Of a stretch of DNA of 64,000 nt, positions 16,469 through 52,010 are shown one piece after another (positions within the stretch are counted from its first letter, which is position 1; every line of letters starts with the position of its first letter). Position numbers and translations under genes: made by a program. Origin of the DNA: Ruminococcus sp. (GTDB lineage Bacteria; Bacillota; Clostridia; Oscillospirales; Ruminococcaceae); the NCBI GenBank assembly GCA_017529875.1, contig JAFXNC010000027.1:18112-82111 (forward strand). Reading direction: 5' to 3'. The notes beneath the pieces were generated by a model. That model searched no databases. It worked only from the letters and a program-made list of their open reading frames with translations, and had not been told where the DNA came from.

Positions 16469-16732
16469 TTAATAGTCCCTCGGAACAACTGCAACAGCTT
16501 TCCGAGGTGCTTTGCCGTTCATCAGAGACTCATATTCAGCCCTTTTGAGAACAGCCTTGTCTATTTCTTCGGTAAGCTTATCGAGATCAAACCTTGTAAG
16601 GCTGCGATCATCAATGGTATAGGATTTCACACCGCCCTCGAGCAGCGCTATTTTCGCATCCATCAACTTACCGATCAATCTGTCATAGTATTCATACATT
16701 GCTCTTGCCTGTGTCTTTGTAATCATAATCAT
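16469..16732 (-). CDS. Head-tail joining protein, gpW-like
   Basis: Small helical protein of about 87 residues between terminase and portal, the place of lambda W. It has the helix-beta-helix layout of gpW, with an S-Y-T-I-D-D-R-S-L-T hairpin flanked by charged helices. The start codon is an ATG at 16732 (TGATG overlap with the terminase stop) or at 16726. gpW closes the filled head for tail joining. Confidence 0.75.
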   Translation of the reverse strand: MIMITKTQARAMYEYYDRLIGKLMDAKIALLEGGVKSYTIDDRSLTRFDLDKLTEEIDKAVLKRAEYESLMNGKAPRKAVAVVPRDY

Positions 16733-18636
16733 CACCAATCGTCATAGAATTTCTTTCGCTGCTTTTTGGCAGGCGGCTGTTTTCGTACAACAGGCGTTTC
16801 GGATTCTTTGCTCGCTTTGAACTTCTTGCCTATTGCATCAAAGTCAGGAGAAAGAGCTTTCGCAGCCGCCTGTGCGTAGTTTCGACAGTCAAGAGCCTCG
16901 TTTCTCTCGTGTCCCGGTATTTTTTCCCACACCCACGGATTTTTTCTGCCTGATTTATACACAAGCCTCTCTGAGAGCAGCCCCTTGAAGAATGCGGGAC
17001 CGTAATCATCCCGCAGCGGGAAGTGACAATACTTGCCTCCGGGCGTTTGCACCCGCAGATTGTCGAATATGAGTTGCTTTCCGGCATCAACGCCGATCTC
17101 ATATACCCACGTTTGCCCTATAGCTTTGCCCTTGACTACGATTTTCTGCTTTTTCGGCGCTGTGGTGTACGGAATGCCGTCACCGCCGCGACCTTTTATC
17201 GCAAATACCTTTTTTCCAAGCCGATCTCGGCAGCGTTGCCGAACATCTTGCGTAAAATGGCCGCCCTCGTCAACGAACGTGCAGGATATTTTCAGCCCTC
17301 GTCCGTTCTGGAACTTGTAAACGTGATCTATCACTTGATCGAGCCGTTCCCACGTTTCATCGAGGTCAGGCCGTCCCATAATAATGCCCTTGGCAATGCC
17401 CCAGGACTCCCAGAAATGCCCGAAGCCGACCACTTCATACTCCAAGCGGTCATCTTGCGTATCAACCCCGCAGGTCAGGCACAAAACGCCGTCCGGCAGT
17501 TCTGCCGGGTATTGTTCCCGGCGAGCCATAACGCTGTCCTCGTCCTCGAGATCGCCTCTATCTTCCCACAGCAAGCCGAAGCGGGTATTATACACAACCT
17601 GCATTTTCCGGCTGTTGCCGATTGCTTTAAGATATTGCAGTATGGTCGATTTCCAGCTCGCCCACGGAGATACCCACGATGAAAGCCAGAACGACCTTGT
17701 GCCGTGCTGCTCGTAGGCGTCGGGGTTTTCGGCGACCCATTTTGACGGCTGTCTTTTGATTTCATCCTCTGTTGATGTCGCCCCGCACTCGGGGCAGATG
17801 TAGTAGATGTTGAATACCTTGTAGGTTTTGTCGTTTCCGACAACGGTTTCCTCTTTATCAAAGCGGATGTTCTCAAACGTGATCTCGCTGTACTTTCCGC
17901 AGTGAGGGCAGCGTGTTTTCCACCGTTCCTTGGTACCGTCCGCATACGCTGTCTCAATGGCGCTGGCGCCTTTGATAGTCGGGGTTGATACCTCAACCGA
18001 TTTGGCGTTATAGAACGTGATCTGTCGGGCTGTGGCAAGTTCCCACGGGTCGCCCTCGTTTCCTGCCGACGTTGCCCAGCGGTCACGCTCGTCACCGAAA
18101 ATGTATCTTATAGGCTTTGAAGCCAGTGCGTGAGCCTCGGTGGAGCCGCACATCGTTAAAATACCGCCCGGATAAGCTTTTTGTAGAATAGTGTTTGCGC
18201 TGTCCCGGCTTTTTGGATCAGACACCTTGCTCTTAAGACATTTGGTGTCTCTGATCATAGGAGCAATTCTTAATTTCGAGTATTCTTTGGCATCAATGGT
18301 TGTGGGCTGTATAAAAAGTATCGAGCCGGGGTCTTGGTCGATGATATATCCGATCAGATTGTTGATACACTCTGATTTGCCGACCTGTGAAGATGCCACA
18401 ATGACTATGTGGCGGACTTTCGGATCGTTAAATGAATCCATAGGCTCTTTGAGATACGGCGTTCTTGACGTTCTCCAGGAGCCGACCTCGGCGGAGCTTT
18501 CGGGCGACAGTTTTCTTTTTCTGTCCGCCCACTCCGATACGGTGAGCTTTTCGGGAGGCTTGAAGCCGGATATAGCGGGTGCAATAGCCCTGTTCAGCTT
18601 TTCGGCTGCTATGGCTTGCAGCTCACTCTTGGTCAT
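16732..18636 (-). CDS. Terminase large subunit, GpA family
   Basis: Packaging motor and nuclease, 634 residues, like lambda gpA. The ATPase shows a Walker A variant A-S-S-Q-V-G-K-S at 81-88 and Walker B I-F-G-D-E at 179-183. A zinc ribbon (C-P-H-C and C-P-E-C) sits between ATPase and nuclease domains. The nuclease begins at C-G-V-D-T-Q-D-D. A gpA-type terminase implies cos-type packaging. It overlaps the small subunit gene by 14 bases. Confidence 0.95.
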   Translation of the reverse strand: MTKSELQAIAAEKLNRAIAPAISGFKPPEKLTVSEWADRKRKLSPESSAEVGSWRTSRTPYLKEPMDSFNDPKVRHIVIVASSQVGKSECINNLIGYIIDQDPGSILFIQPTTIDAKEYSKLRIAPMIRDTKCLKSKVSDPKSRDSANTILQKAYPGGILTMCGSTEAHALASKPIRYIFGDERDRWATSAGNEGDPWELATARQITFYNAKSVEVSTPTIKGASAIETAYADGTKERWKTRCPHCGKYSEITFENIRFDKEETVVGNDKTYKVFNIYYICPECGATSTEDEIKRQPSKWVAENPDAYEQHGTRSFWLSSWVSPWASWKSTILQYLKAIGNSRKMQVVYNTRFGLLWEDRGDLEDEDSVMARREQYPAELPDGVLCLTCGVDTQDDRLEYEVVGFGHFWESWGIAKGIIMGRPDLDETWERLDQVIDHVYKFQNGRGLKISCTFVDEGGHFTQDVRQRCRDRLGKKVFAIKGRGGDGIPYTTAPKKQKIVVKGKAIGQTWVYEIGVDAGKQLIFDNLRVQTPGGKYCHFPLRDDYGPAFFKGLLSERLVYKSGRKNPWVWEKIPGHERNEALDCRNYAQAAAKALSPDFDAIGKKFKASKESETPVVRKQPPAKKQRKKFYDDW

Positions 18637-19246
18637 CCGTTGTGCTTGCGAGAGCCTCAGACTTTATCCTCTCTCGCACCCTTTCTTCATACTTAGCAGG
18701 ATCATACTTGTACTGCGAGAGTTCTTCCATGACCTTATAGACCTCGCTGCGTATGATCTCTGCCGTGTCCGCTGCGTCCTTGGCGTTTACCACCGCAACG
18801 GCTAATCTGCCGGGGAGAGCGAGCAATGCACCACGCACGGCGAATACAAGATCGGCGGTCATATCCGCAACATCTGTTGACCTGTGCATCTGTCCTGTCC
18901 GCTCGCTCGCTTCAAGCGTTGCTATCTGCGCCTTTGCTTTTTTCAGCTTCGCCTCATACTTTCTCCTATCACGTTCAATGTTGGCGCTCTCGCCGTCTTT
19001 CTCGTCAGTTCTTTCCTCGATCATCGTGATATAATCTCTGATGTTGTCGGAAAGATTGTAGAGCGAGCCGCAGGGAGTGTTCTGCTTGTTGAGTGTGCCT
19101 TGACTTGTGAGCTGCCCCACCCACTGATTGGATTTACCGATGATCGAGCAGATGTCAGCCGTTTTCACATAGATAGGCGTACCCGCTTGCAGCACATATA
19201 CTGCGCCGTCCTTGATTTCTGCAATAGGTTTCTGCTTTGATGCCAT
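18623..19246 (-). CDS. Terminase small subunit, Nu1-like
   Basis: DNA-recognition subunit of the terminase, 207 residues. The N-terminal part holds a winged-helix-like HTH (V-K-T-A-D-I-C-S-I-I-G-K-S). Residues 85-125 form a charged coiled coil, as in Nu1 proteins. An AAAGGAG site precedes the ATG. It is the first gene after the 345-base gap that probably carries the cos/packaging site. Confidence 0.85.
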   Translation of the reverse strand: MASKQKPIAEIKDGAVYVLQAGTPIYVKTADICSIIGKSNQWVGQLTSQGTLNKQNTPCGSLYNLSDNIRDYITMIEERTDEKDGESANIERDRRKYEAKLKKAKAQIATLEASERTGQMHRSTDVADMTADLVFAVRGALLALPGRLAVAVVNAKDAADTAEIIRSEVYKVMEELSQYKYDPAKYEERVRERIKSEALASTTDDQE

Positions 19247-19591: not shown

Positions 19592-20110
19592 TCAGAGTTT
19601 CGTGAGTATCTCGGCTCTGCTGTAGTGTTTACCCTGTGACATCATAAGTAAGAAGTCCTCTTTGGAGAAGTCGGATAGTCTGAATACTTCTTCCGGCTTC
19701 ATACCCAGCTGCTTACTGATCTCGTCGACTGTCTTTCCTTCGTTCATCAGTCTCTTTACGATTGCCTTCATAGGTTCGAGCAGATGCGTTCCTCTTGCTC
19801 GGTTGTGAGTGACTGTGCCGTAGATGTCCTCGGACTCTTCCTTGTGATCGACTATCACTATCGGAACTTTGCCGTCGAGCATAGACCTTAAAGGCTCCTC
19901 GCCCGATACTGTCCACCTGTGGAAGCCGTCTATGATAGTCAGGTCTGGCCTCACCACGATAGGCAGCGTCCAGCCGTTGGTCATTATCGACTGCGTGAGC
20001 AGCTTTAAGTTTTCCTTGCTTACCTTGTTCGGGTTGTAGTCGTTCGGCTTCAGCTTGTCGTGTTCTACCCATTGGAGCGTGCTCAATGGAGCAGACAGCT
20101 TTTTATCCAT
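19592..20110 (-). CDS. ParB-like nuclease-fold protein, IbrB-like
   Basis: Protein of 172 residues with a ParB/sulfiredoxin-fold domain (L-K-P-N-D-Y-N-P-N, then I-I-D-G-F-H-R-W). It continues with the T-H-N-R-A-R-G and K-Q-L-G-M-K-P-E-E-V segments seen in IbrB proteins. IbrB is always found with an IbrA reductase-like partner, here the gene directly upstream with an eight-base overlap. The start at 20110 follows GGAGGTGA. The biochemical role of IbrB is not established. It is distinct from the 436-residue ParB at 32408. Confidence 0.8.
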   Translation of the reverse strand: MDKKLSAPLSTLQWVEHDKLKPNDYNPNKVSKENLKLLTQSIMTNGWTLPIVVRPDLTIIDGFHRWTVSGEEPLRSMLDGKVPIVIVDHKEESEDIYGTVTHNRARGTHLLEPMKAIVKRLMNEGKTVDEISKQLGMKPEEVFRLSDFSKEDFLLMMSQGKHYSRAEILTKL

Positions 20111-21257
20111 TGCTCTCACCTCCTTTGCGGAAGTGTTTGCAATGCTCGGCAAATGCTGTGAATACGTCCTGATATACTGCTCGCAAGGTGCGGAGCTTTG
20201 GATCGCCTGCGATAAGTGCCTCATGCATCTTGCGGTAGTCCTTGGGTCTTGCCATACCGTCCAGCTTAATCAGCGCCTTGCGGTACTGATCGGCAACGTG
20301 CTTCTGATGTTCCGTATGGAAATACTTACTCGGACTCTTTATCAGCATATCAATGAGGGCTGCTTTGTGGTCTTTTTGCTCTTGACCCTCCGCTTTCTTC
20401 CTGCTCTTGGTGCTGCGTCCGAACATCTCGCTATCCCAGTACAGAGCTGCAAGGTAAGCGTTCGGCTCCCTGCGTATCACTCGCTCCATAAGGTCGGGAT
20501 AGTATTCATTCATTCGCACAAGGCAGGAGGCTGTGTCAGATGAAAAGAACTGTGACACTCTCAGCTGCCGCTTGCTTATGCCCGCTTGCCACATATACAG
20601 ATATATGGACGGGATCTCGACCTTCTGCTCCCGGAGGAACAGCCATACGTCAGAATCTTTCCAATCATATATCGGAAAGATCATTCGCTTACCTGTCAGC
20701 CCTTTCTTGCCGACATTGGCAGCGGCCATATACTGCAAGCGCTGTATCGACTCCGCAGCCCTCACTCCGGTAATCATAATGCCGTCCTTGGTAACTCTCG
20801 GGAGGAATGATTGGTAGTTGTCCACCCTCGGCTTCAGCTGCGGATCTGACCTTATGGCAAAAGGAGGAGGCTTTCGCACCCACACTTTCTGTTTCGTGCT
20901 GTCCCAGCAGATGAATGACTCATCTGCCGTAAGTTGATTGAAGCAGTTGTAATGCCGAACCTCAAGGCAATACCAACGGAATTCGGCGCCGGATATAAGG
21001 AACTTTTTGCGCCATGCCTTGACGATCTCTTCGATGCAGGGGAAGATCGCTTCCTCGTCTATGAATATCACTACAAGCTGTGATGAATCTATCTCTTTGC
21101 GTTGGATAAGATCATATACGATCTTCGCAACGCACAAGCTGTCTTTCCCTCCCGAGAAAGACATATACACCCGCAGGCCGTTCGAGAACACGTTTTTGAT
21201 CCGTGTCTTTGCAGCCTCGACAACATCAATGTTCGACAAGATATGTTTTACAGCCAC
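20103..21257 (-). CDS. PP-loop PAPS-reductase-like protein, IbrA/DUF3440-like
   Basis: Protein of 384 residues of the adenine nucleotide alpha hydrolase superfamily. The PP-loop S-F-S-G-G-K-D-S lies at 33-40, and a G-V-R-A-A-E-S motif near residue 165 is typical of PAPS reductases. The R-W-Y-C-L-E-V-R-H-Y-N-C-F-N-Q segment and the C-terminal P-K-D-Y-R-K-M-H fit the IbrA/DUF3440 type. Relatives activate a substrate with ATP for sulfur or amide chemistry. The substrate here is unknown. It is coupled to ParB-like genes on both sides. Confidence 0.85.
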   Translation of the reverse strand: MAVKHILSNIDVVEAAKTRIKNVFSNGLRVYMSFSGGKDSLCVAKIVYDLIQRKEIDSSQLVVIFIDEEAIFPCIEEIVKAWRKKFLISGAEFRWYCLEVRHYNCFNQLTADESFICWDSTKQKVWVRKPPPFAIRSDPQLKPRVDNYQSFLPRVTKDGIMITGVRAAESIQRLQYMAAANVGKKGLTGKRMIFPIYDWKDSDVWLFLREQKVEIPSIYLYMWQAGISKRQLRVSQFFSSDTASCLVRMNEYYPDLMERVIRREPNAYLAALYWDSEMFGRSTKSRKKAEGQEQKDHKAALIDMLIKSPSKYFHTEHQKHVADQYRKALIKLDGMARPKDYRKMHEALIAGDPKLRTLRAVYQDVFTAFAEHCKHFRKGGESNG

Positions 21258-21844
21258 ATCTTTTCACCGCATTTCGGGCAGATAACGTACTTTCGTGTGT
21301 CGATCTCGACCTCTCTGCCTCCGCTGTCGGCCTCCGGTGGTGCGGTCTGAATAGGTGCTGGGCTTACCGCAGGAGCTTCCGCAGCTCTGATGATAGGCTC
21401 CTTGTCCTCATCATCGAGCATCCCATACTCCATTAGGGTCTCCGTTGTTTCCTCGTCGTTCATGATAAGCGAATTCAGCAGCTCGTCGCTGTAGCCGGGA
21501 ATGTCAAAGTCCCCGTCAAGCTCGGCTATGAATTCATCGAAAACAGAAAGATCGTCAGTCCCCAGGCTGAATATCCTGTTGTCTGACAACATAAGTTTCT
21601 TCTTATCGTTTGAGGAAAGCCCGGTCTTTACAAGGCAGTCCACCTTGTCCCACTCCAGGGCGAGAGCGGCAGCGTAAAGCCCATTGCCGATGAGTATCTC
21701 GTTGTTCTCATCGACCACGATAGGCTTGATCTGTCCGTTCTTCACCAAAGAGCGCTTGTATTCCTCGATCTGCTCCGGCGGGTGCATTCTCACATTCCTC
21801 TTTGCCGGGTGCAGATCTGACAGCTTTATTGATACGATTTTCAT
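21248..21844 (-). CDS. Second ParB-like protein with C-terminal CxxC
   Basis: Protein of 198 residues with a ParB-like domain over about 1-95 (L-H-P-A-K-R-N-V-R, P-I-V-V-D-E-N-N-E-I-L-I-G-N-G). An acidic middle and a Pro/Ala linker follow. The protein ends in C-P-K-C-G-E-K-M-W-L, half of a zinc ribbon. Catalytic ParB domains usually have G-H-x-R at the G-N-G-L-Y position, so a changed active site is possible. It overlaps both neighbouring PP-loop genes and so forms a second ParB/PP-loop pair. Confidence 0.8.
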   Translation of the reverse strand: MKIVSIKLSDLHPAKRNVRMHPPEQIEEYKRSLVKNGQIKPIVVDENNEILIGNGLYAAALALEWDKVDCLVKTGLSSNDKKKLMLSDNRIFSLGTDDLSVFDEFIAELDGDFDIPGYSDELLNSLIMNDEETTETLMEYGMLDDEDKEPIIRAAEAPAVSPAPIQTAPPEADSGGREVEIDTRKYVICPKCGEKMWL

Positions 21845-22626
21845 TTGTTCTCACCCCCTCCCTCAAGGAAGAGGCGGGCGCTCTCTATCTTTTCGGCCGC
21901 ACCCTCGACAATAGATCTGTCAATGTCGTATATCTCCTGCCAGCCGTTCTCGATGCTCTGCGTGTATTGTCTTGCAGGCCAGGGGTGAGTACCGCACAGA
22001 TAGCCGTTTTTCCAATCATAGATCGGCGGTAACGGCAGCCCTTTGTATATGATAAATGCAAGGATATCCTCGTGCCTCCAATCCGCAAGCGGGCTGTAGA
22101 ACGTATATCCTTTCGCATCTGTGTAATAGTTATTTCCTCTGCCGACGTGATTTCCGTCAGCTCTACGTCTGCCCAGCAGCATTACATCGATCTGATGTGC
22201 TTTGTAATACTGCCTTTGGGCTTTGTGCTGCACGATGTCGAACCACCTTGCAGCAAGCGCATTGGTCTGCGGGAAAAGCATATTCGGGTGCTTTACAAGC
22301 CAGTCAAGGTTGATCCCGGTGTTGATGATCTCGCATTTATCAGGCTTGTTCTCATTTATCCATTTCAGAAAAGCCGGATATTCGAGATCACATATCCCAA
22401 TCATACAATCCTCGATCTTTGCCTGCTTACACAAGGCTCCGAGAACGATGCTGTCTTTTCCGCCACTCCACGCATAAGCAGCCTTTTGCCCTTTGGTGAA
22501 TGCCTTGATCTCGGCTACGGTGCGCTTGGTCAAAGCATTGATATCTTTCTCCGGCACGGTCTCTTTTATCGTTTCAAGAGCCTTGATCCAGTCGCTGTTG
22601 GCTATGGACTGTTTTCTTCCAAGCAT
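21841..22626 (-). CDS. Second PP-loop PAPS-reductase-like protein
   Basis: Protein of 261 residues with PP-loop A-W-S-G-G-K-D-S at 52-59. Later motifs L-L-G-R-R-R-A-D-G-N and P-L-A-D-W-R-H-E-D-I-L match phosphoadenylyl-sulfate reductase relatives such as CysH and DndC. The catalytic E-C-G-I-H of CysH is not present, so simple sulfate assimilation is unlikely. It starts in a TGATG junction with the symporter stop and overlaps the next ParB-like gene by ATGA. Confidence 0.85.
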   Translation of the reverse strand: MLGRKQSIANSDWIKALETIKETVPEKDINALTKRTVAEIKAFTKGQKAAYAWSGGKDSIVLGALCKQAKIEDCMIGICDLEYPAFLKWINENKPDKCEIINTGINLDWLVKHPNMLFPQTNALAARWFDIVQHKAQRQYYKAHQIDVMLLGRRRADGNHVGRGNNYYTDAKGYTFYSPLADWRHEDILAFIIYKGLPLPPIYDWKNGYLCGTHPWPARQYTQSIENGWQEIYDIDRSIVEGAAEKIESARLFLEGGGENK

Positions 22627-23996
22627 CAGGCCTCAGCTCCTTTCTTTGGATAAAGGAGAGCCACAAGCCCGCTTGTTAAAACAGTCACAAGGCTGCCGAC
22701 AGTCTTGTAAACAGCTATGCCGTTAATGTTGCCGTAAGCAAATATCGGCATACCGATCAACAGTGCTGCTATGATACCGAAGAACACGCCGTTTGCTGAA
22801 AGCTTCTTATTCATCAATGTGAGCGCCGTCGGCAGGAGTGTCGATGCTCTCAACGTGCAATAGAAAAGGAACAAGGTTGTAACAGTCATTCCGGGAATGT
22901 TCGCTACAGCTATTCCGAGCACAAGAAGAACGAGCATACTGATCTTTGCGCCCTTGACACCGCACTTGTAGTCGCTCGTGAGCGAAGCCACAGCGCATAG
23001 ATTACTGTCAATAGTCGAAAGCAAGCCCGATACTACCATAAACAGGAACGGCAGCATTACCCATTTCGGGAACAGATGACCTATCAGTTCAAAGTTTACA
23101 AGCCCGGTGTCAGTAGCTTTATAGCCTGATCCTGCTGCTATGTAGCCGAGAATACCCATAGACAGAGGCACTATTGCAAAGAGCAGGGCACCAAGCAGGA
23201 ATGATTTCCCGATTTTGCCCTTGCGGATTGTGAAAGCCCGCTGCCAAAAGCACTGATCTCCGAACGGTCCGGCTATAAGACCGATTGCGGTAGGAATGCC
23301 GAAAGAAATCATTACGGAAACTCCGTTGCTGTCGAACAAGCTGCCGAACTTTCCGCTTTCGCCGCTCAATCCGTTGATAAGATTTGTAACACCGTTATCC
23401 ATTGAGAGTGCCCACGGCACAAACACGGCGCAGGCTGCAAGCATTAAGATCATCTGCATTGCATCTGTAAGCACCGAGGCTTTGATGCCGGAAAACTGCG
23501 AATACGAGAAAGCGATAACTGCAAGTATGATCGTCAGCGGGAATAATGGTATTCCTGTGATGACCGACAGTATCTTACCGCCTGCCAGGAGCTGAACGCC
23601 CGTTGACAGAATAGATAGTAATGAGAGCTGTCCGAGATACACCTTACGGACTTTCTCTGATTTGTAGGTTGTTGCCATAAAGTCGGATAAGGTGATGCCC
23701 TCCGGCATCCTCTGCCTGATCCGCTTTGCAAATGGAATGAAGAATATAAGGCACAGAACGTTCGGCACCAAGAACCAAAACAGTCCGGGTATGCCGCTGC
23801 TGTATGCCTTTTCTGCTGATGTGAACAATGCAGGCGCCCATATCCAAGTAGCTGCAATGCTCATAGCTGATTGCCACGTTCCGAGGTTTCTGTCGGCAAC
23901 GTGAAAATCGTTGGCGTTTCTGCTCTTATGTGAGAACATTATTGTAACGCCGATCATTAAGACCGCATACACGATCATAACGATAATACCATACAT
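22626..23996 (-). CDS. Sodium/solute symporter (SSS family) carried by the phage
   Basis: Integral membrane protein of 456 residues with about 13 hydrophobic segments, the SSS/PutP layout. Residues F-H-V-A-D-R-N-L-G-T-W in the first loop and L-L-S-T-I-D-S-N in the eighth core helix match the family's conserved loop and sodium-site region. The substrate cannot be told from sequence. It is the first gene of an overlapping five-gene cassette with two PP-loop/ParB pairs and has its own leader with promoter and terminator hairpin. A GGAGG site precedes the ATG. A full transporter inside a phage structural-gene block is unusual. Confidence 0.9.
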   Translation of the reverse strand: MYGIIVMIVYAVLMIGVTIMFSHKSRNANDFHVADRNLGTWQSAMSIAATWIWAPALFTSAEKAYSSGIPGLFWFLVPNVLCLIFFIPFAKRIRQRMPEGITLSDFMATTYKSEKVRKVYLGQLSLLSILSTGVQLLAGGKILSVITGIPLFPLTIILAVIAFSYSQFSGIKASVLTDAMQMILMLAACAVFVPWALSMDNGVTNLINGLSGESGKFGSLFDSNGVSVMISFGIPTAIGLIAGPFGDQCFWQRAFTIRKGKIGKSFLLGALLFAIVPLSMGILGYIAAGSGYKATDTGLVNFELIGHLFPKWVMLPFLFMVVSGLLSTIDSNLCAVASLTSDYKCGVKGAKISMLVLLVLGIAVANIPGMTVTTLFLFYCTLRASTLLPTALTLMNKKLSANGVFFGIIAALLIGMPIFAYGNINGIAVYKTVGSLVTVLTSGLVALLYPKKGAEA

Positions 23997-24102
23997 TTGG
24001 TACTTCCTCCTTTTCGTTTAGTCCGCTGGCGAAGCGAACTCCAAGTAGCTGCAATGCAAGGAGCAACATTGCAATACGGTTTGAGCTATCCTCCTTTCTG
24101 CA

Positions 24103-24130
24103 TAAAAATACCGCCCGGGGTACCGAGCGG
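24103..24130 (-). terminator. Intrinsic terminator/attenuator in symporter leader
   Basis: On the minus strand CCGCTCGG and CCGGGCGG pair over an eight-base stem (one G-T pair) with a TACC loop and are followed by TATTTTTA. It sits between the promoter at 24158-24163 and the symporter start at 23996. It can end early transcription from the right or act as an attenuator of the cassette. Confidence 0.65.
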
Positions 24131-24157
24131 CGCTATATGTTAGAATTCTATGTATAC

Positions 24158-24163
24158 AGTATA
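24158..24163 (-). promoter_or_regulatory. Extended -10 promoter of the symporter cassette
   Basis: TATACT preceded by TG-T gives an extended -10 on the minus strand. No good -35 is seen at the right distance. It lies just after the stop of the late-regulator-like gene and about 160 bases before the symporter start. Confidence 0.5.
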
Positions 24164-24182
24164 ACACATATCATCGGGACAT

Positions 24183-24590
24183 TTAGGACAACTTTTCAGA
24201 TTTTTTAAGAAATCTGTAACAGGCCTTTTTCACGCTGTCCTCTGTGTTCTGTCCTCCAATCTTTCGGGCGACCTGTATCCATGACAGCAAATCTACGAAT
24301 CGATACGCCAAAATCAGCCTTATTTGCGGATCCTCTACGGTGTCAATGAACGTTTCGAGGTTTCTTGTTTCAGCTTCGTACTGCGCCCTCTCCTTTCTGA
24401 TCCTATCACACAAATCAAGTATAATCGGCGTGATATTTTCGATAGCGTTTCCGGGAGATGTGCTGTGCGGCATTCCGCTCATATCCATTCCGCCCGGCTG
24501 CAGCTTTGCTTCGAGCCTTGCCAGCTTCTCGGTATCACGCTCAATGAGCTTTTTGAGATAATACAGTTTGCTCATATCCTTTAATGTCAT
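24183..24590 (-). CDS. Late transcription regulator, ArpU/sigma-region-4-like
   Basis: Protein of 135 residues. The N-terminal half is a charged coiled coil. The C-terminal half has a sigma-70 region 4-like pattern (I-L-A-Y-R-F-V-D-L-L-S-W-I-Q-V-A-R-K-I, then V-K-K-A-C-Y-R-F-L). Such ArpU/RinA-type proteins switch on late genes in Firmicute phages and lie just before terminase. Here the symporter cassette separates it from terminase. Control of the late operon is inferred from this position. Confidence 0.75.
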   Translation of the reverse strand: MTLKDMSKLYYLKKLIERDTEKLARLEAKLQPGGMDMSGMPHSTSPGNAIENITPIILDLCDRIRKERAQYEAETRNLETFIDTVEDPQIRLILAYRFVDLLSWIQVARKIGGQNTEDSVKKACYRFLKKSEKLS

Positions 24591-31870: not shown

Positions 31871-32411
31871 TCGTTTCACCCTCTGCTTTTGAGACAGTTT
31901 CCACAACGGTCTTAAGCTTCTTGTAGCCCTCCGTTAATGTAAACAGATCTTCGGTCAGATTACATTCAATAGCAGCATCGAATATCTTCTTCATCAGCTC
32001 CTTGAACTCGGCGAGAAGATCGTCCGCTGGAACAGGGCTCTCGCCCTGCTCCTTTGTGATCTCCGGTTCAGCTGCGGGCTCCTGCTCCTGGCGGTATTTC
32101 TTAAGTCTATATACAACCGTTTCGACACAGCAACCGAAATGATCTGCAATGGCCATATTGGAATAACCCTGCTTGTGCATTTCCATCATTTCAGCCTCGA
32201 TCTCGGGAGTTGCCTTAAAATGATGCCGGCCTTTCGGAGCTCCGCTCTTCTTGGAGGTCTTAGTCTTTTTACTCTTGGCAGGCTGCTTGCCTCTCTCGGT
32301 CAGGAATGCCTCGATTTCATCACTCGGGATCCCGCTTTCGGAGGCCATTTCCTCCAAAGTCATTCCCTTGGCGTTCATAGCTGCGATCTGCAATTTCTGT
32401 TCCTGTGTCAT
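31863..32411 (-). CDS. Helix-turn-helix DNA-binding protein
   Basis: Protein of 182 residues with two HTH-like segments. The first is M-T-L-E-E-M-A-S-E-S-G-I-P near residue 17 and the second Y-S-N-M-A-I-A-D-H-F-G-C near residue 83. A lysine-rich linker separates them and a helical tail follows. The ATGA overlap with the ParB gene suggests a shared role in DNA binding, which is inference. Confidence 0.7.
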   Translation of the reverse strand: MTQEQKLQIAAMNAKGMTLEEMASESGIPSDEIEAFLTERGKQPAKSKKTKTSKKSGAPKGRHHFKATPEIEAEMMEMHKQGYSNMAIADHFGCCVETVVYRLKKYRQEQEPAAEPEITKEQGESPVPADDLLAEFKELMKKIFDAAIECNLTEDLFTLTEGYKKLKTVVETVSKAEGETNG

Positions 32412-33718
32412 TTGGAGCCCTCCTTGATATAAAGTTCACTTGTTCCGTCCAGCAGCTTCTTTTCTTCATCCGATATCACATAGCCCATGCTTTTAAGTAT
32501 GTCGTAGATTTCTTCAAGCTGTTCGTTTCTCTCATACTCGCCGTCCCAGGAGAAACAATCCAACCTGTCTCCATCTCCGAGACAAGCATAAGCTGTCCTC
32601 CACAGCGAACGGTATTCGTGCTTCTCGAAATCCTTTTCCACATCAGAGAAATCATAGCCCTGCTCGCTGTCGGGGGGATTTTCAAAGAAATCCTCTGCTT
32701 CAAAGTCATAGGCGTACCCCTCGAAGCAGCTGAGAATAATTGCCTTGAATACCTCCTTGTATCTGTTCTTGGCTCTGATCTCGCTGACGGCAAACACGAA
32801 CTTGCGGCGGAGCATGTAAGCGGTCTTAAAAGCTTCTTCGAGTTTTTCAACTGCTTTTTCCATCTTTGCTCTTTTTGCGGTCTCTTTTGACTTGGCTTTC
32901 TGTTCTTCTGCACTATCTACGGTTTTATAAAGCATAACCGTATTCCAAGAAAAATAGAACATTTCAGCATCGCCGAGCGGGAGCTTTTTAGGATCAGAGT
33001 TCAGATCAGACGAGACTACACTTTGGAGTCCGTAGCTGTTGCTGTAATTCGTAAATTCTTTAAGGCCGTTGGCAGTGAGATGCTTTCTCCACGCCTCTCT
33101 TTTTTCCTCTTTCGCTTCCTCGCTTTTTGCCTGCTCCAATTTCCAGTTAAACGTAGGCGTGCCTATGTATTCCAAAAGGCTTTCACGAGTTTTGGCATTC
33201 TTGACCTTTTCGAGATCATCAAAATCGGAAAGCTTGATCTGCCTGCCCTCGAGCTGAGATATTTTCTCGGCATCGTATTCGGCAATTTTAAGCCTACGTC
33301 TGACCGTACTCTCGGAAAAACCGCTTGCCTTGCTGATTTCCTCAACACTCTTGCCGAAATCAAACGCCAGCTGCTTGAAACTTTGCGCCTGCTCCAACAG
33401 GGTAAGATCGGTTCGCTGCATATTCTCGGTAAGCATTACCTCAATCTGCCCGTCCTCAGACAGATTAACAATGGTACACGGTACCTCTTTCAGCCCTGCG
33501 AGTTTGGCAGCTGCAAGGCGCCTGTGTCCGATCAGCACCGTGTACTCGCCCTCGGCTTCGGCAGGAACTACGGTGAGGTTCTGGAGGATCCCGCTTGCCT
33601 TAATGCTGTCGGCAAGCTCGGTGATGTCTCCAATATCTTTCCTCGGGTTCTTCGGGTGCGGGCTGATATGATCCACGCCGATCAGCGTGATGCCCGCTGT
33701 TTTCTTCTTTGCTGTCAT
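32408..33718 (-). CDS. ParB/RepB-type DNA-binding protein
   Basis: Protein of 436 residues with a ParB domain: P-H-P-K-N-P-R-K-D-I near 18, I-G-H-R-R-L-A-A-A near 63 and T-E-N-M-Q-R-T-D near 97. An HTH domain follows (S-E-S-T-V-R-R-R-L). The C-terminal 200 residues are charged and unlike chromosomal ParB. No ParA lies in the window, so partition is uncertain. Phage proteins of this type may act in replication or gene control. TAAAGGAGC precedes the ATG. Confidence 0.85.
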   Translation of the reverse strand: MTAKKKTAGITLIGVDHISPHPKNPRKDIGDITELADSIKASGILQNLTVVPAEAEGEYTVLIGHRRLAAAKLAGLKEVPCTIVNLSEDGQIEVMLTENMQRTDLTLLEQAQSFKQLAFDFGKSVEEISKASGFSESTVRRRLKIAEYDAEKISQLEGRQIKLSDFDDLEKVKNAKTRESLLEYIGTPTFNWKLEQAKSEEAKEEKREAWRKHLTANGLKEFTNYSNSYGLQSVVSSDLNSDPKKLPLGDAEMFYFSWNTVMLYKTVDSAEEQKAKSKETAKRAKMEKAVEKLEEAFKTAYMLRRKFVFAVSEIRAKNRYKEVFKAIILSCFEGYAYDFEAEDFFENPPDSEQGYDFSDVEKDFEKHEYRSLWRTAYACLGDGDRLDCFSWDGEYERNEQLEEIYDILKSMGYVISDEEKKLLDGTSELYIKEGSK

Positions 33719-43374: not shown

Positions 43375-44952
43375 GTGGAAGATAAGAAAACCGAAAAGGC
43401 TGTTATCTATGCGAGATACAGCAGCAGCGGACAGCGTGAGGAATCTATCGAGGGGCAGCTAAGAGAGTGCCACGCATACGCAAAGCGTTTCGGGCTGACC
43501 GTCATCGGCGAATACTGCGATCACGCTCTGTCTGGAACGGTAGATGCCCGCCCTGAGTTCCAGAGGATGATCAAGGACTCCGCCAAGAAACAGTTTACTG
43601 TTGTTCTGACCTGGAAGCATGACCGTTTCGCTCGCAACAGATATGATGCAGCCATTTACCGCAGCAAGCTCAAGTCTAACGGGGTACGCATTGTCTACGC
43701 AAAAGAGGCTGTTCCCGAAGGTCCAGAAGGAATTATACTCGAATCTGTTATGGAGGGAATGGCTGAGTATTATTCCGCAAATCTTTCGCAGAATGTCAAG
43801 CGAGGGCTTTATGACAGCGCTTTGAAACGTGGCACCCTCGGACAGTCCGCTTTCGGTCTCCGCAAAAGCTCTACAGGTACCTTTGAGATTGATCCCGATA
43901 CAGCCCCGATAGTCAAGCGAGTATTTGAACAGTACGCCGCTGGTGTGCCTGCAAAAACTATCTGCAAGGAACTGAATGAAGCAGGTTACACTACGCCAAG
44001 GGGCGGGAAGTTCGACAACAATTCCATTCGCAGGATAATCAAGAATGAAAAATATTGCGGAGTATATGAGTATGCCGACATCAGAGACGAGAACGGTATT
44101 CCGGCTATCATAAGCCGCATGCTATGGGAGAAGGCGCAGGAAATGCAGAGGAAGCATCACGAAAAGCCCGCTGCGAAGAAAATAGACGGTGGATTTCTGC
44201 TGACCGGCAAACTCTTCTGCGGTCACTGCGGAAATCCTATGACTGGAGACAGCGGAACATCAAAGACAGGAAAGATATATGAATATTACACTTGCATAGA
44301 ATTCCGAAAGCACAAGTGCGATAAAAAGAGGGCTCCGAAGCAGGCTATTGAGGACATCATAGTGCATAAGCTAATGGAGATTGCAGCTGACGATAATCTG
44401 ATAGATGCCTTTGCTGATCGGTATATGATCTGGCAGGAAAAAGAAAAAGACCGCACAGAGCTGAAAGCCCTGGAGGTCAAGCTGAAAAGTATTAACGCTG
44501 CAATAGCCAATACTATGAAAGCCATCGACAGCGGTATTATTACCGAAAGCGTAAAGTCACATCTGATAGACCTTGAATCCCAGAAGGCCGACATCGAGGC
44601 CGGGATAGGCAAAGAAATGATAGAGGATCCCGTTCTCGAACGTGACCAGGTCGTTTTCTTCCTCTCTCGGTTCCGCGATGGTGATGCCGACGATGTAGCT
44701 TTCAGGATATTCCTTGTCGAAACATTCTTGAAGGCTGCCTATCTCTATGATGACGGACGGCTGATTTTAAGCCTTAATTTCTCTGGAGAAAAGAGCGAGG
44801 TAACGCTGTCAATCGCCGAAGCTGCGACGGTTGAGGGGGACGTCGTGTGTTCGGATTTGGCGTCATCTGCCCCGCCAGCGGGAGCGGCCGCGCGCAATTC
44901 CCTCGCCATTTACTTTGGCGAGGGCTTTTCATTTTGTTTGGCTCGGGGCTGA
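43375..44952 (+). CDS. Large serine recombinase (phage integrase)
   Basis: Site-specific integrase of 525 residues. The resolvase domain has Y-A-R-Y-S with catalytic Ser16, the W-K-x-D-R-F-A-R region near 80 and E-S-V-M-E-G near 118. A recombinase domain, a zinc ribbon (C-G-H-C, then a C-I-E/K-C-D pair) and a coiled coil near 365-420 follow. The start is GTG at 43375. The last 35 or so residues are Ala/Gly-rich and run into a terminator hairpin. They look like a run-on across the attachment junction. Confidence 0.93.
   Translation: MEDKKTEKAVIYARYSSSGQREESIEGQLRECHAYAKRFGLTVIGEYCDHALSGTVDARPEFQRMIKDSAKKQFTVVLTWKHDRFARNRYDAAIYRSKLKSNGVRIVYAKEAVPEGPEGIILESVMEGMAEYYSANLSQNVKRGLYDSALKRGTLGQSAFGLRKSSTGTFEIDPDTAPIVKRVFEQYAAGVPAKTICKELNEAGYTTPRGGKFDNNSIRRIIKNEKYCGVYEYADIRDENGIPAIISRMLWEKAQEMQRKHHEKPAAKKIDGGFLLTGKLFCGHCGNPMTGDSGTSKTGKIYEYYTCIEFRKHKCDKKRAPKQAIEDIIVHKLMEIAADDNLIDAFADRYMIWQEKEKDRTELKALEVKLKSINAAIANTMKAIDSGIITESVKSHLIDLESQKADIEAGIGKEMIEDPVLERDQVVFFLSRFRDGDADDVAFRIFLVETFLKAAYLYDDGRLILSLNFSGEKSEVTLSIAEAATVEGDVVCSDLASSAPPAGAAARNSLAIYFGEGFSFCLARG
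44900..44929 (+). terminator. Terminator at the integrase end
   Basis: CCCTCGCC at 44900-44907 pairs with GGCGAGGG at 44917-44924, followed by CTTTTC. It lies inside the last codons of the integrase frame. Confidence 0.7.
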
Positions 44953-49637: not shown

Positions 49638-52010
49638 TTATTTGGTCTCAACAGTATCGAGCAGCAGCTTTCCCTCGTGAACGGTTACGCGCAGATCATG
49701 GGCGTTACTGATGTCAAAGCTATGCCACAGCGCGGCGCGTGGGACAGTGTTGCGAACGGTTATCCGGTCGGCGATCAGCTTGCCGTCCGCTTCGACGGAG
49801 ATGACTGCGCCATCCGACTGCGCGATGATCGCGGCGGCGGTGCCGATGCCTTTGACCTCAAAGCTCGCCTCACCGTCGTTTTCGGCTGAGGTGCGGTTGT
49901 GGAGGATGAAGGAGCCCATTGTGTTTTTGTGCCAGTTGCCCGAGCAGTTAATGCGGCTGTCAAGAGCGTCGATGCGCTGGACAAAGCCTTCCCTGCCCGC
50001 AGGTTCAACGGAGATATCCGCGAATACAACGTTGTGATAGGACGAGAACAGCGAGGCTCTCCCCGAGAAGAGCAGCCCCTCAGTGACAGCGAGGCTTGCA
50101 AGCTCCTCACCATCGACGGAGCATGATATTTGCGCGTCGGAGCAGGTCAGGGAAAGGCGGTGCCATGCTTTGACATCGAACCGAGTAAGGGTACCCTCCG
50201 ACAGAACGGTCATCATCGAGTACAAACGCCATGTGGCATCGCTGCCGATCTCAAGGCGGTATCCGCTGCGAGACTGGTCGCAGGCACTGAGCAGATATCT
50301 TGCGCCGATGCCGGCCTTGCAGCCATCGTCTGAGGTCAGGCGGACGTTGGCACAGAGGGTATAATTTGCCCAGCGGTCGTCGCCGAAAGAGGTCACGGGG
50401 TCGGGGGTGAAGCCCCATTCAGATCCGCGAAGTTCTTCGGTGGTCTTCTGCATCAGAACATTCCTGCCGCCCTCGCGGACGATCTCAAAGGCACCGCCCT
50501 GATCGGTCATATATCGCGGTGCAAAGCCTCTTTCGGCGAGGAAGTTTTCACCGTATTCGGAGTATGAAAAATCATCCCAGTACGGAATTGCCAGCGGCTC
50601 ATCGGGCAGCGGCTCGTCAAGCTGCATCGGCTTTGTGTCAAGGGTAGTCGCGGTGACGATAGAATAGGGGCAAACTGTCAGACTGTAACTCCCCTCCTGC
50701 GGAATGATTCGCTCGCGCAGTTTCAGATAGTTCTCGTCGAAGCTGCCGCTGTCGGGGCCGCGGGTCTCCCAGACCTTGACCTCAGCGCAGGATAGGTTTT
50801 TGAGCTGCACATCATAGCTGCGCTCGTCGGGGGTGTTGTTGACAAAGATCATGGAGTAGTCTCCGGAGGCGGGGTCGCAGAGCACAAGGCGGTTGTCAGA
50901 TGTATCCCGCAGGACGTGATCGCGCGCTGTTCCGTCGCCGTAGCAGGCGCTCTGAACAAAACGCCAGCCCTTGCGGGAGAACCGTGCAAAATGCTGTGCC
51001 ATATATATGCCGGAGCCGTATTCAGTGTGTCCCGACCAGGGCTCATTGGCTCTGATAAGCTGTTTCGGGAAGAAGTTGACGCCGCTGTAATATGCGGCGA
51101 CAGCGGGCTGAAACTCGTATGCGGTGAAGCCGCCGTTAGGGTACATATTAACGATCCTGCCCGCCACATCAAGGGCGCCGTTGACACCGCCGAGGCCGCT
51201 GCCGTCGGCATTGACGGCAAGGCGGGAAACATTCGCGGGAGCAAGCCCCTCGCTGTACCAGAGCTCCTTGCCAAACTCGTCCTTGCAGCGGCGGGTGTTT
51301 TCGTCAGAGGCCGAGATGTAGTGTATGCCGATCACATCCACGGCGTTCATCAGATCAGGGTCACGGAGCATATCCCCGGCGGCGTTGAAGCAGGCATCCT
51401 CGTCGGCGATGACGATCTTTATCTGTGAGTATGGATAGGGGCAGTCGGTCTCGCTTTTGAGCCGTGCCGAGAAGTATTTTATCCATTCTTTCTCGACGGT
51501 ACGCTCATTGATGTTCGGGTCGATATAGGAGAATTTTAAACCGTATTTCTCATAGGCCGCATCGAGTGTTTCCTTGAACCAGCGGTAGCGGAGCTCCCGC
51601 TTTTCGTTATCGGGAGCGTGGTCGATATAGCCGGGTACTCCCCAGGAGAGAAGTTCAAGAGTTATATCGGGGGCGATCTTCAAGGCATCGGCGGCAAGAA
51701 TAAATCCTGCGCCCCGCGTGACGTCTGCGGGCTCTTCTGCGGAACGCTTGACGCTTGGCTCGGTGCCGCTGGTGGAATTGATATCCGCGCCCAGTTCAAG
51801 CTTAATGTGCCCCATGCCGAGACCCTTCTCCGCATCGAACATATAGGTAAGCAGCCTGTCATAGGCCTCCCGGTGCTCCGTCCTGTAATCCAGCAGCAGC
51901 CGCGAGGAATTGTTGGCGCTGATATATCCGAAGCCCCGCCAGAAGCTGTTAGTGCGCATATCGGCTGTGCTGCCGTCGGCGGTGAGATGAATAACTTTGC
52001 GTTCGATCAT
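49638..52010 (-). CDS. GH59 galactocerebrosidase-like glycosidase
   Basis: Protein of 790 residues matching GH59 (galactosylceramidase type), which cleaves beta-galactosides such as galactosylceramide. H-I-K-L-E-L-G-A-D then T-S-G-T-E-P-S near 68-86, N-E-R at 168-170 with the acid/base Glu169, and L-W-Y-S-E-G with the nucleophile Glu254 match GALC. A further E-P-W-S-G-H motif lies downstream. The C-terminal half holds beta-sandwich, lectin-like parts. No signal peptide is seen, so it probably acts in the cytoplasm on imported glycosides. It has its own consensus promoter. Confidence 0.88.
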   Translation of the reverse strand: MIERKVIHLTADGSTADMRTNSFWRGFGYISANNSSRLLLDYRTEHREAYDRLLTYMFDAEKGLGMGHIKLELGADINSTSGTEPSVKRSAEEPADVTRGAGFILAADALKIAPDITLELLSWGVPGYIDHAPDNEKRELRYRWFKETLDAAYEKYGLKFSYIDPNINERTVEKEWIKYFSARLKSETDCPYPYSQIKIVIADEDACFNAAGDMLRDPDLMNAVDVIGIHYISASDENTRRCKDEFGKELWYSEGLAPANVSRLAVNADGSGLGGVNGALDVAGRIVNMYPNGGFTAYEFQPAVAAYYSGVNFFPKQLIRANEPWSGHTEYGSGIYMAQHFARFSRKGWRFVQSACYGDGTARDHVLRDTSDNRLVLCDPASGDYSMIFVNNTPDERSYDVQLKNLSCAEVKVWETRGPDSGSFDENYLKLRERIIPQEGSYSLTVCPYSIVTATTLDTKPMQLDEPLPDEPLAIPYWDDFSYSEYGENFLAERGFAPRYMTDQGGAFEIVREGGRNVLMQKTTEELRGSEWGFTPDPVTSFGDDRWANYTLCANVRLTSDDGCKAGIGARYLLSACDQSRSGYRLEIGSDATWRLYSMMTVLSEGTLTRFDVKAWHRLSLTCSDAQISCSVDGEELASLAVTEGLLFSGRASLFSSYHNVVFADISVEPAGREGFVQRIDALDSRINCSGNWHKNTMGSFILHNRTSAENDGEASFEVKGIGTAAAIIAQSDGAVISVEADGKLIADRITVRNTVPRAALWHSFDISNAHDLRVTVHEGKLLLDTVETK

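Follow-up and report, generated by a model that had tools for sequence, protein, structure and literature searches.

Five overlapping genes beside the phage terminase

We analyzed a 64,000-nucleotide stretch of a Ruminococcus sp. contig (JAFXNC010000027.1, positions 18,112 to 82,111; hereafter the window), in which a prophage carries a cassette of five minus-strand genes for a predicted transporter (SSS), two PP-loop proteins (PP1 and PP2) and two ParB-like proteins (PB1 and PB2). Comparison of the sequences of related loci gives good support to a coupling between the transporter and the PP-loop/ParB proteins. The cassette and its neighbors are as follows.

22626..23996, minus strand: SSS, sodium:solute symporter family protein, predicted importer, 456 residues (PF00474, 77.5 bits)
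21841..22626, minus strand: PP1, PP-loop ATP-pyrophosphatase-like protein with an SGGKDS loop, 261 residues, optional cassette member (PF01507, 42.7 bits)
21248..21844, minus strand: PB1, protein of the ParB/sulfiredoxin fold with a C-terminal CxxC tail, 198 residues (PF02195, 26.0 bits, just under the cut-off of 26.3)
20103..21257, minus strand: PP2, IbrA/YbdN-like PP-loop protein without DUF3440, 384 residues (PF01507, 41.8 bits; phrog_2302, 299.5 bits)
19592..20110, minus strand: PB2, IbrB/YbdM-like ParB protein with a DGFHRW motif, 172 residues (PF02195, 27.5 bits; phrog_2159, 245.6 bits)
24183..24590, minus strand: late transcription regulator, upstream of the cassette (phrog_36, 53.8 bits)
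18623..19246, minus strand: terminase small subunit, next gene downstream of the cassette (phrog_57, 87.1 bits)
16732..18636, minus strand: terminase large subunit (phrog_15, 778.5 bits)

A sequence-only reading of this DNA had described five overlapping genes between the late regulator and the terminase. All five open reading frames (ORFs) are indeed present, in the order SSS, PP1, PB1, PP2, PB2, with overlaps of 1, 4, 10 and 8 bases at the junctions. The start of PB2 is placed at the ATG at 20110 by family alignment, the mechanical ORF list beginning at 20224. SSS passes the PF00474 gathering score of 22.8 bits and, among the PHROGs, matches phrog_20720 (610 bits), a family of unknown function. 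PB1 matches phrog_620 (149.8 bits) and, with 100.4 bits, the N-terminal portion of the methyltransferase family phrog_498. The nearest solved chains of PP1, all weak matches, are phosphoadenosine phosphosulfate (PAPS) reductase, ATP sulfurylase and GMP synthase. DUF3440 (PF11922), which the same reading had named in its proposed check, gave no Pfam match in PP2 up to E 0.1 and none across the whole host genome; the identical search was positive in both controls, E. coli and L. lactis.

The transporter gene in related loci

We centered the search on PP2 in order to escape the bias of starting from the symporter. Four scans with cassette members as seeds, which kept the best 80 each of at least 585, 121, at least 567 and 316 relatives, gave 182 distinct phage loci after the removal of identical PP2 centers. 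When 26 loci with less than 1.2 kb upstream were dropped, 156 could be judged, and 155 of these close relatives of the seeds have a cassette that includes a transporter gene. The slot is occupied by the symporter in 96 loci, by a short protein of about 330 residues in 52, and by an ATP-binding cassette (ABC) permease with a binding protein in 7. Given seeds drawn from the cassette and the best 80 relatives retained per scan, this linkage speaks for the clade and not for every IbrA homologue.

On a tree of 112 PP2 rows, the labels symporter, short, ABC and none need at least 15 changes (shuffled mean 38.7). With the rows without a transporter left out, the minimum is 12 changes of transporter type, and 6 for LeuT-fold against ABC. 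When each type is set against all others, starred branches alone force 10 changes for the symporter, 6 for the short transporter and 4 for ABC. Since the type changes so often on the tree and nearly all loci have a transporter, the slot is, by these sequence comparisons, often exchanged and almost never empty.

In the seven ABC-type loci (L200, L212, L221, L241, L357, L363 and L415) the permease and binding protein replace the symporter. Those scanned, from L200, L212 and L221, gave matches with BPD_transp_1 and the NMT1/SsuA group; in L212 and L221 the binding protein begins, by eye, with a lipobox-like segment. A further variant, found in 12 distinct loci, adds to the symporter a gene of about 200 codons whose product has a signal-peptide-like start. 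This product was modeled as a 12-strand barrel (mean predicted local distance difference test score 84.0), with a designed 12-strand membrane barrel and the KdgM porin as structural matches; for the 12 proteins Pfam yielded two weak matches, to Porin_2 and to MBG. We therefore predict from the model an outer-membrane barrel, which together with the symporter would fit uptake across two membranes. No PHROGs match at E 0.001 was found for one barrel and two short transporters. The order in the barrel loci is SSS, barrel, PP1, PB1, PB2, PP2 (PP1 was not found in L385), and elsewhere the symporter stands after PB2 or after PP1, the set being unchanged. Homing-endonuclease-like genes, recognized by eye, lie between PP2 and PB2 in L013, L074 and L236, and a transposase-like gene lies inside a split PP1 in L128.

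The linkage is also seen from the symporter. In the viral set, the best 80 of 88 contigs with a symporter relative (57-77% identity), PB1, PP2 and PB2 accompany the symporter in 74 of 80 loci and all five genes are present in 60; five of the other six stop at the contig end. Among 74 symporter loci on bacterial and archaeal contigs, taken from one genome per species and by their record titles mainly Clostridia plus four Treponema, the three partners occur in 53 and all five genes in 44. The other 21 comprise six at contig ends (L084, L093, L112, L140, L144, L153), four incomplete cassettes and 11 distant symporters whose identity is about 51% at most; L155, among these 11, is a fragment at a contig end. 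Profile search found no PP-loop/ParB cassette beside the ten symporter relatives of at most 50% identity (L137, L138, L139, L142, L145, L146, L148, L149, L152, L154). With the three partners kept in 74 of 80 viral loci, the five-gene cluster is far beyond chance.

Near four of these distant symporters (L137, L138, L139 and L149) lies a gene whose product starts like asparagine synthase, a glutamine amidotransferase joined to a PP-loop domain; the three that were scanned (L137, L138, L149) match PF00733, and we did not use this neighbor for inferring the substrate. A CxxC-rich protein is also encoded near all four; L137 and L149 further show a weak Toprim match.

The sequence-only reading had proposed that the five genes work as a unit, and had named homologues found mostly apart, or a recent lone insertion of the symporter, as findings that would speak against it. 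The opposite was found, as the gene order varies and the set stays. The co-occurrence in other phages that it had suggested as a check is seen for the SSS, PP-loop and ParB genes; DUF3440 is absent from PP2 of the window.

Position before the terminase genes and leader

The cassette keeps its place beside the terminase. Leaving aside 43 loci with less than 3.5 kb of downstream sequence, we assessed 139; in 129 of them an ORF belonging to a terminase large-subunit cluster begins no more than 3 kb from the cassette. The clusters fall into phrog_2, phrog_9, phrog_15 and phrog_38 (one representative per cluster scanned), so that the position is kept although the terminases belong to at least four different families. 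No cassette gene was found in the stretches examined of Toutatis and Roseburia phage Shimadzu, which have a related terminase.

A consensus scan of the leader in the window gave two elements.

24174-24145, minus strand: promoter-like site
24110..24131, minus strand: terminator-like hairpin, upstream of the symporter and downstream of the promoter-like site

Within the scanned region of the window, promoter-like sites are no commoner than in shuffles. Across loci, 183 distinct upstream regions of the transporter were compared, and 135 have the promoter-like TAAAATTCT (at most one mismatch); of 915 plain base shuffles, 148 have it. The five ABC upstream regions are not among the 135. A terminator-like hairpin follows the promoter-like element in most displayed upstream examples, in symporter and short-transporter phages alike. 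A promoter-like element with a close hairpin at the start of a late unit looks like an attenuation or antitermination start. Rfam gave no match up to E 1 in the leader (23900-24400), and thus no known riboswitch. The cassette seems, from its arrangement, to open a late, packaging transcription unit, which favors a lytic role over lysogenic conversion.

An exact 18-base minus-strand repeat occurs in the leader (24057-24040) and inside the symporter gene (23860-23843), where it encodes the conserved SIAATW motif; it is possibly a scar of transporter exchange. Elsewhere in the window, the early region of the same prophage encodes a third ParB protein, with a helix-turn-helix (HTH) domain (32408-33718, minus strand; PF02195, PF17762), and a serine recombinase (43375-44952, plus strand) is a candidate prophage integrase. 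Beyond the recombinase, a glycosyl hydrolase family 59 protein (49638-52010, minus strand) probably belongs to the host chromosome.

Transporter folds and solute

The nearest solved relatives of the symporter are the urea symporter DUR3 (E 2.8e-21) and the choline transporter CHT (E 1.5e-18). Residues W51, W53, D247, S327 and T328 are invariant in 18 of 18 rows. S327 and T328 may correspond to the Ser/Thr pair of the sodium site of PutP. In a HMMER alignment W51 aligns with W99 of the choline site of sfCHT. The short transporter has no Pfam model, and a PDB search with its profile gave no match up to E 0.1, the fold being recognized by structure only; AlphaFold gives it a LeuT/SSS-type fold, and its nearest folds lie in the same DUR3/CHT1 branch. 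Identity to this branch is low, however, and the choline-site residue W298 of sfCHT is replaced in the symporter by the invariant D247, an Asp that is common to DUR3 and the cassette symporter. For the ABC binding protein the families indicated are of the sulfonate, taurine, nitrate, bicarbonate or urea type, none of the matches reaching its curated cut-off. As a weak first guess, the closest solved relatives of the symporter suggest a urea-, amine- or choline-like solute, and its residues hint at small amide- or amine-like compounds, no more.

Motifs of the PP-loop and ParB proteins

In PP2, S35 of the PP-loop is present in 104 of 105 clade rows, and G37, K38, D39 and the acids D67, E68 and E69 in all 105. 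None of its cysteines is universal (C97 in 101 rows, C105 in 87, C117 in 83). In PP1, C66 is found in 18 of 19 rows and C211 in 17. The ECG(L/I/V)H motif, which we take to be the catalytic motif of PAPS reductase, occurs in none of the 18 PP2 and 19 PP1 rows. Because PP2 has no universal cysteine and this motif is absent from both proteins, sulfur transfer is unlikely; more probable is a ligation that forms AMP and uses an amine or amide. Among the weak matches of the two PP-loop proteins are tRNA thiolases, GMP synthase and FAD synthase. Two loci (L090 and L095) carry, between PP1 and PB1, a class II glutamine amidotransferase with an N-terminal cysteine, as would be expected for a reaction with amide nitrogen. 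PB2 has the motif DG(F/Y)HRW in 16 of 16 rows, and the CxxC tail of PB1 (C189 and C192) is kept in 17 of 17.

The IbrA/IbrB lineage

One PP-loop/ParB pair had been likened to IbrA/IbrB, and the comparison bears this out. The PP2 profile gives E. coli YbdN 127.6 bits and the PB2 profile gives YbdM 116.1 bits, and the gene order is the same. The cassette differs in that its PP2 is without DUF3440, and in that PB1, PP1 and the transporter were not recognized beside the E. coli pair, in CHPC1230 and CV-1-33 or beside three weak matches from the order of the host.

Those three are among eight PP2 relatives in 295 sampled genomes of that order; all five strong ones, including that of the window, have the symporter (two of these contigs have the lengths of those of L083 and L086 and probably duplicate them). 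Of ten annotated phage regions around PP2 relatives, only that of the Faecalibacterium phage FP_Taranis has a transporter: gp35, of the short type (398 bits), is followed by PB1, PP2, PB2, two small genes and the terminase genes. DNA methyltransferase genes adjoin distant PP2 relatives. Because the strong PP2 relatives have the symporter and the distant IbrA/IbrB pairs have none, the transporter is, on these sequences, a trait of one phage clade within the IbrA/IbrB lineage.

Comparison with known modification systems

A parallel with DNA phosphorothioation had been drawn in the sequence-only reading. The Dnd operon does join, with DndC and DndB, a PP-loop protein and a protein once placed in the ParB superfamily in a single modification operon, as described in a passage of PMC10853773. 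However, PP2 reaches 22.3 bits with the DndC model (TIGR03183), whose cut-off is 290.4, the conserved Fe-S or sulfur-relay cysteines were not found, even the best-kept PP2 cysteine (C97) falling short of universal, and no match to a cysteine desulfurase, DndD or DndE was seen among the five cassette proteins. The parallel is not supported, and a chemistry like phosphorothioation is unlikely. Filing the cassette as a defense system was also dropped, as PADLOC gave only weak DndC, BrxP and methyltransferase matches.

The nearest functional precedent for a phage-borne precursor importer is YhhQ, the preQ0 transporter of the 7-deazaguanine DNA-modification pathway, treated in part of PMC6884629. 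That part of the paper finds YhhQ uncorrelated with any phage group, whereas the linkage of the cassette transporter is nearly complete. One precursor can be imported by several transporter superfamilies, according to an excerpt of PMC11130926. In the Dpd island, DpdB is a ParB-like ATPase used with DpdA in putting a base into DNA, as stated in a section of PMC12839542, and the cassette resembles it in its ParB-like proteins. It differs in that the five cassette proteins have no match to tRNA-guanine transglycosylase (TGT) or DpdA and none passes the QueC model (Pfam, PHROGs and NCBIfam; the rest of the phage was not searched for TGT or DpdA). We did not recognize the gene set as described in open-license PubMed Central papers, a search with preprints and most subscription journals outside it.

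Discussion

We tentatively favor, at somewhat less than even confidence, the view that these genes form a conserved phage module: a predicted importer likely brings in a small solute, which the PP-loop/ParB proteins would attach with ATP, probably to phage DNA before packaging. The predicted importer would take the solute into the cell, and the PP-loop enzyme would adenylate the target, which the imported amine or amide would then attack with no transfer of sulfur. PB1 and PB2 may be nucleotide-dependent DNA-loading or specificity partners, and the solute would be joined to phage DNA just before packaging. We infer import, ligation and the phage-DNA target with confidence that falls in that order. 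Import is suggested because one variant is an ABC permease with a substrate-binding protein and another adds an outer-membrane barrel; late expression, because of the position of the cassette and its leader. Adenylation is suggested because the SGGKDS loop is intact, the DEE acids are invariant, no cysteine is universal and two phages have the amidotransferase, and phage DNA because the cassette lies beside the terminase and DNA methyltransferase genes lie beside distant relatives. Thus the import of a small precursor, as first proposed from the sequence alone, is kept as the best reading of these linked genes, and of its attachment we keep the ligation, with phage DNA as a conditional target. 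A more specific form, possible and held with less assurance, is an import-coupled DNA hypermodification in which the phage has its own uptake route (symporter, ABC permease with binding protein, or barrel with symporter), the variant would be fitted to the host envelope, and the precursor would be ligated to a genome base at packaging by a new chemistry.

Several observations weigh against this module. Adjacency to the terminase bears on timing and not on target. The PP2 tree was made by a quick method and contains long branches. L410 is the one locus of the 156 judged that has no recognized transporter; PP1 is absent from 59 of the 155 transporter-bearing loci (23 symporter, 31 short, 5 ABC); L057 has the symporter without PB1 and PP2; and L089, L118, L143 and L147 keep the symporter with cassette genes missing or short, a contig end being no visible cause. 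The amidotransferase is rare (2 of 219 distinct loci). No ABC ATPase signature (LSGG[QEM]) was found in the sequence examined around the seven ABC loci, which would therefore depend on a host ATPase. Within the wider lineage, no transporter directly adjoins E. coli ybdN/ybdM, the three weak host-order relatives are a PP2-PB2 pair only, and a transporter was not recognized in nine of the ten annotated phage regions (PJN03, Akoma, CHPC1230, CV-1-33, Mwe-JY13, FCL-2, 031MP002, Wheelbite and L338C), of which PJN03 lies within the transporter clade.

It is also conceivable, though rather unlikely in our judgment, that the PP-loop enzymes ligate the imported solute to tRNA, the nucleotide pool or a small metabolite and so support the lytic burst. 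For PP-loop enzymes, tRNA and free nucleotides are targets no less often than DNA (TilS, TtcA and GMP synthase are examples), and the weak matches of PP1 and PP2 to such enzymes and the glutamine amidotransferase of two loci agree with such a target. The two ParB-fold partners, the terminase downstream in 129 of 139 loci and the methyltransferase neighbors of distant relatives point instead to DNA.

Lysogenic conversion, in which the symporter would feed the lysogen a nutrient and the other genes would regulate it, was among the roles first proposed. Many carriers do lie inside Clostridia genomes, i.e., are prophages. We nevertheless consider it improbable and rate it below a lytic role, as the cassette sits within the late packaging block just before the terminase genes, behind a leader in which the promoter-like element is far commoner than in shuffles, and 74 of 80 viral loci hold PB1, PP2 and PB2 beside the transporter. 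We give equally little weight to an IbrA/IbrB-like regulator, in which PP2 and PB2 would co-activate gene expression while the transporter supplies or senses a signal. The homology to YbdN/YbdM would suit it, as would database records that name IbrA/IbrB co-activators of prophage gene expression. However, no DNA-binding HTH family scores above cut-off in PB1 or PB2, the PP-loop and acids are conserved as in enzymes, and a regulator would hardly need an outer-membrane barrel.

Late phage membrane proteins can block superinfection or disturb the host membrane, and the transporter could act in such envelope-level competition with its neighbors as passengers; this is very improbable, given the invariant W51, W53, D247, S327 and T328 of the symporter and the ABC and barrel variants that keep the same partners. 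That a lone symporter gene was recently inserted by chance, without a link to its neighbors, found no supporting point and is virtually excluded by a transporter in 155 of 156 loci and at least 12 type changes with the slot kept filled.

Phage transporters are usually read as single host-derived passenger genes. The exchange of the transporter at least 12 times on the tree while the PP-loop/ParB partners stayed is strong comparative evidence for a transporter-dependent phage pathway. The widespread IbrA/IbrB pair gains a concrete hypothesis, the ATP-dependent ligation of a small molecule, and a minimal LeuT-fold transporter family without a Pfam match is brought to notice. Since carriers exist among gut bacteria in culture collections, these proposals are testable; symporter-type carriers include the type strains Anaerotruncus colihominis DSM 17241, Agathobaculum desmolans ATCC 43058 and Acetatifactor muris DSM 23669. 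If the favored view is true, the phages would have a self-supplied route of DNA modification with their own precursor uptake, of a kind undescribed in the papers searched.

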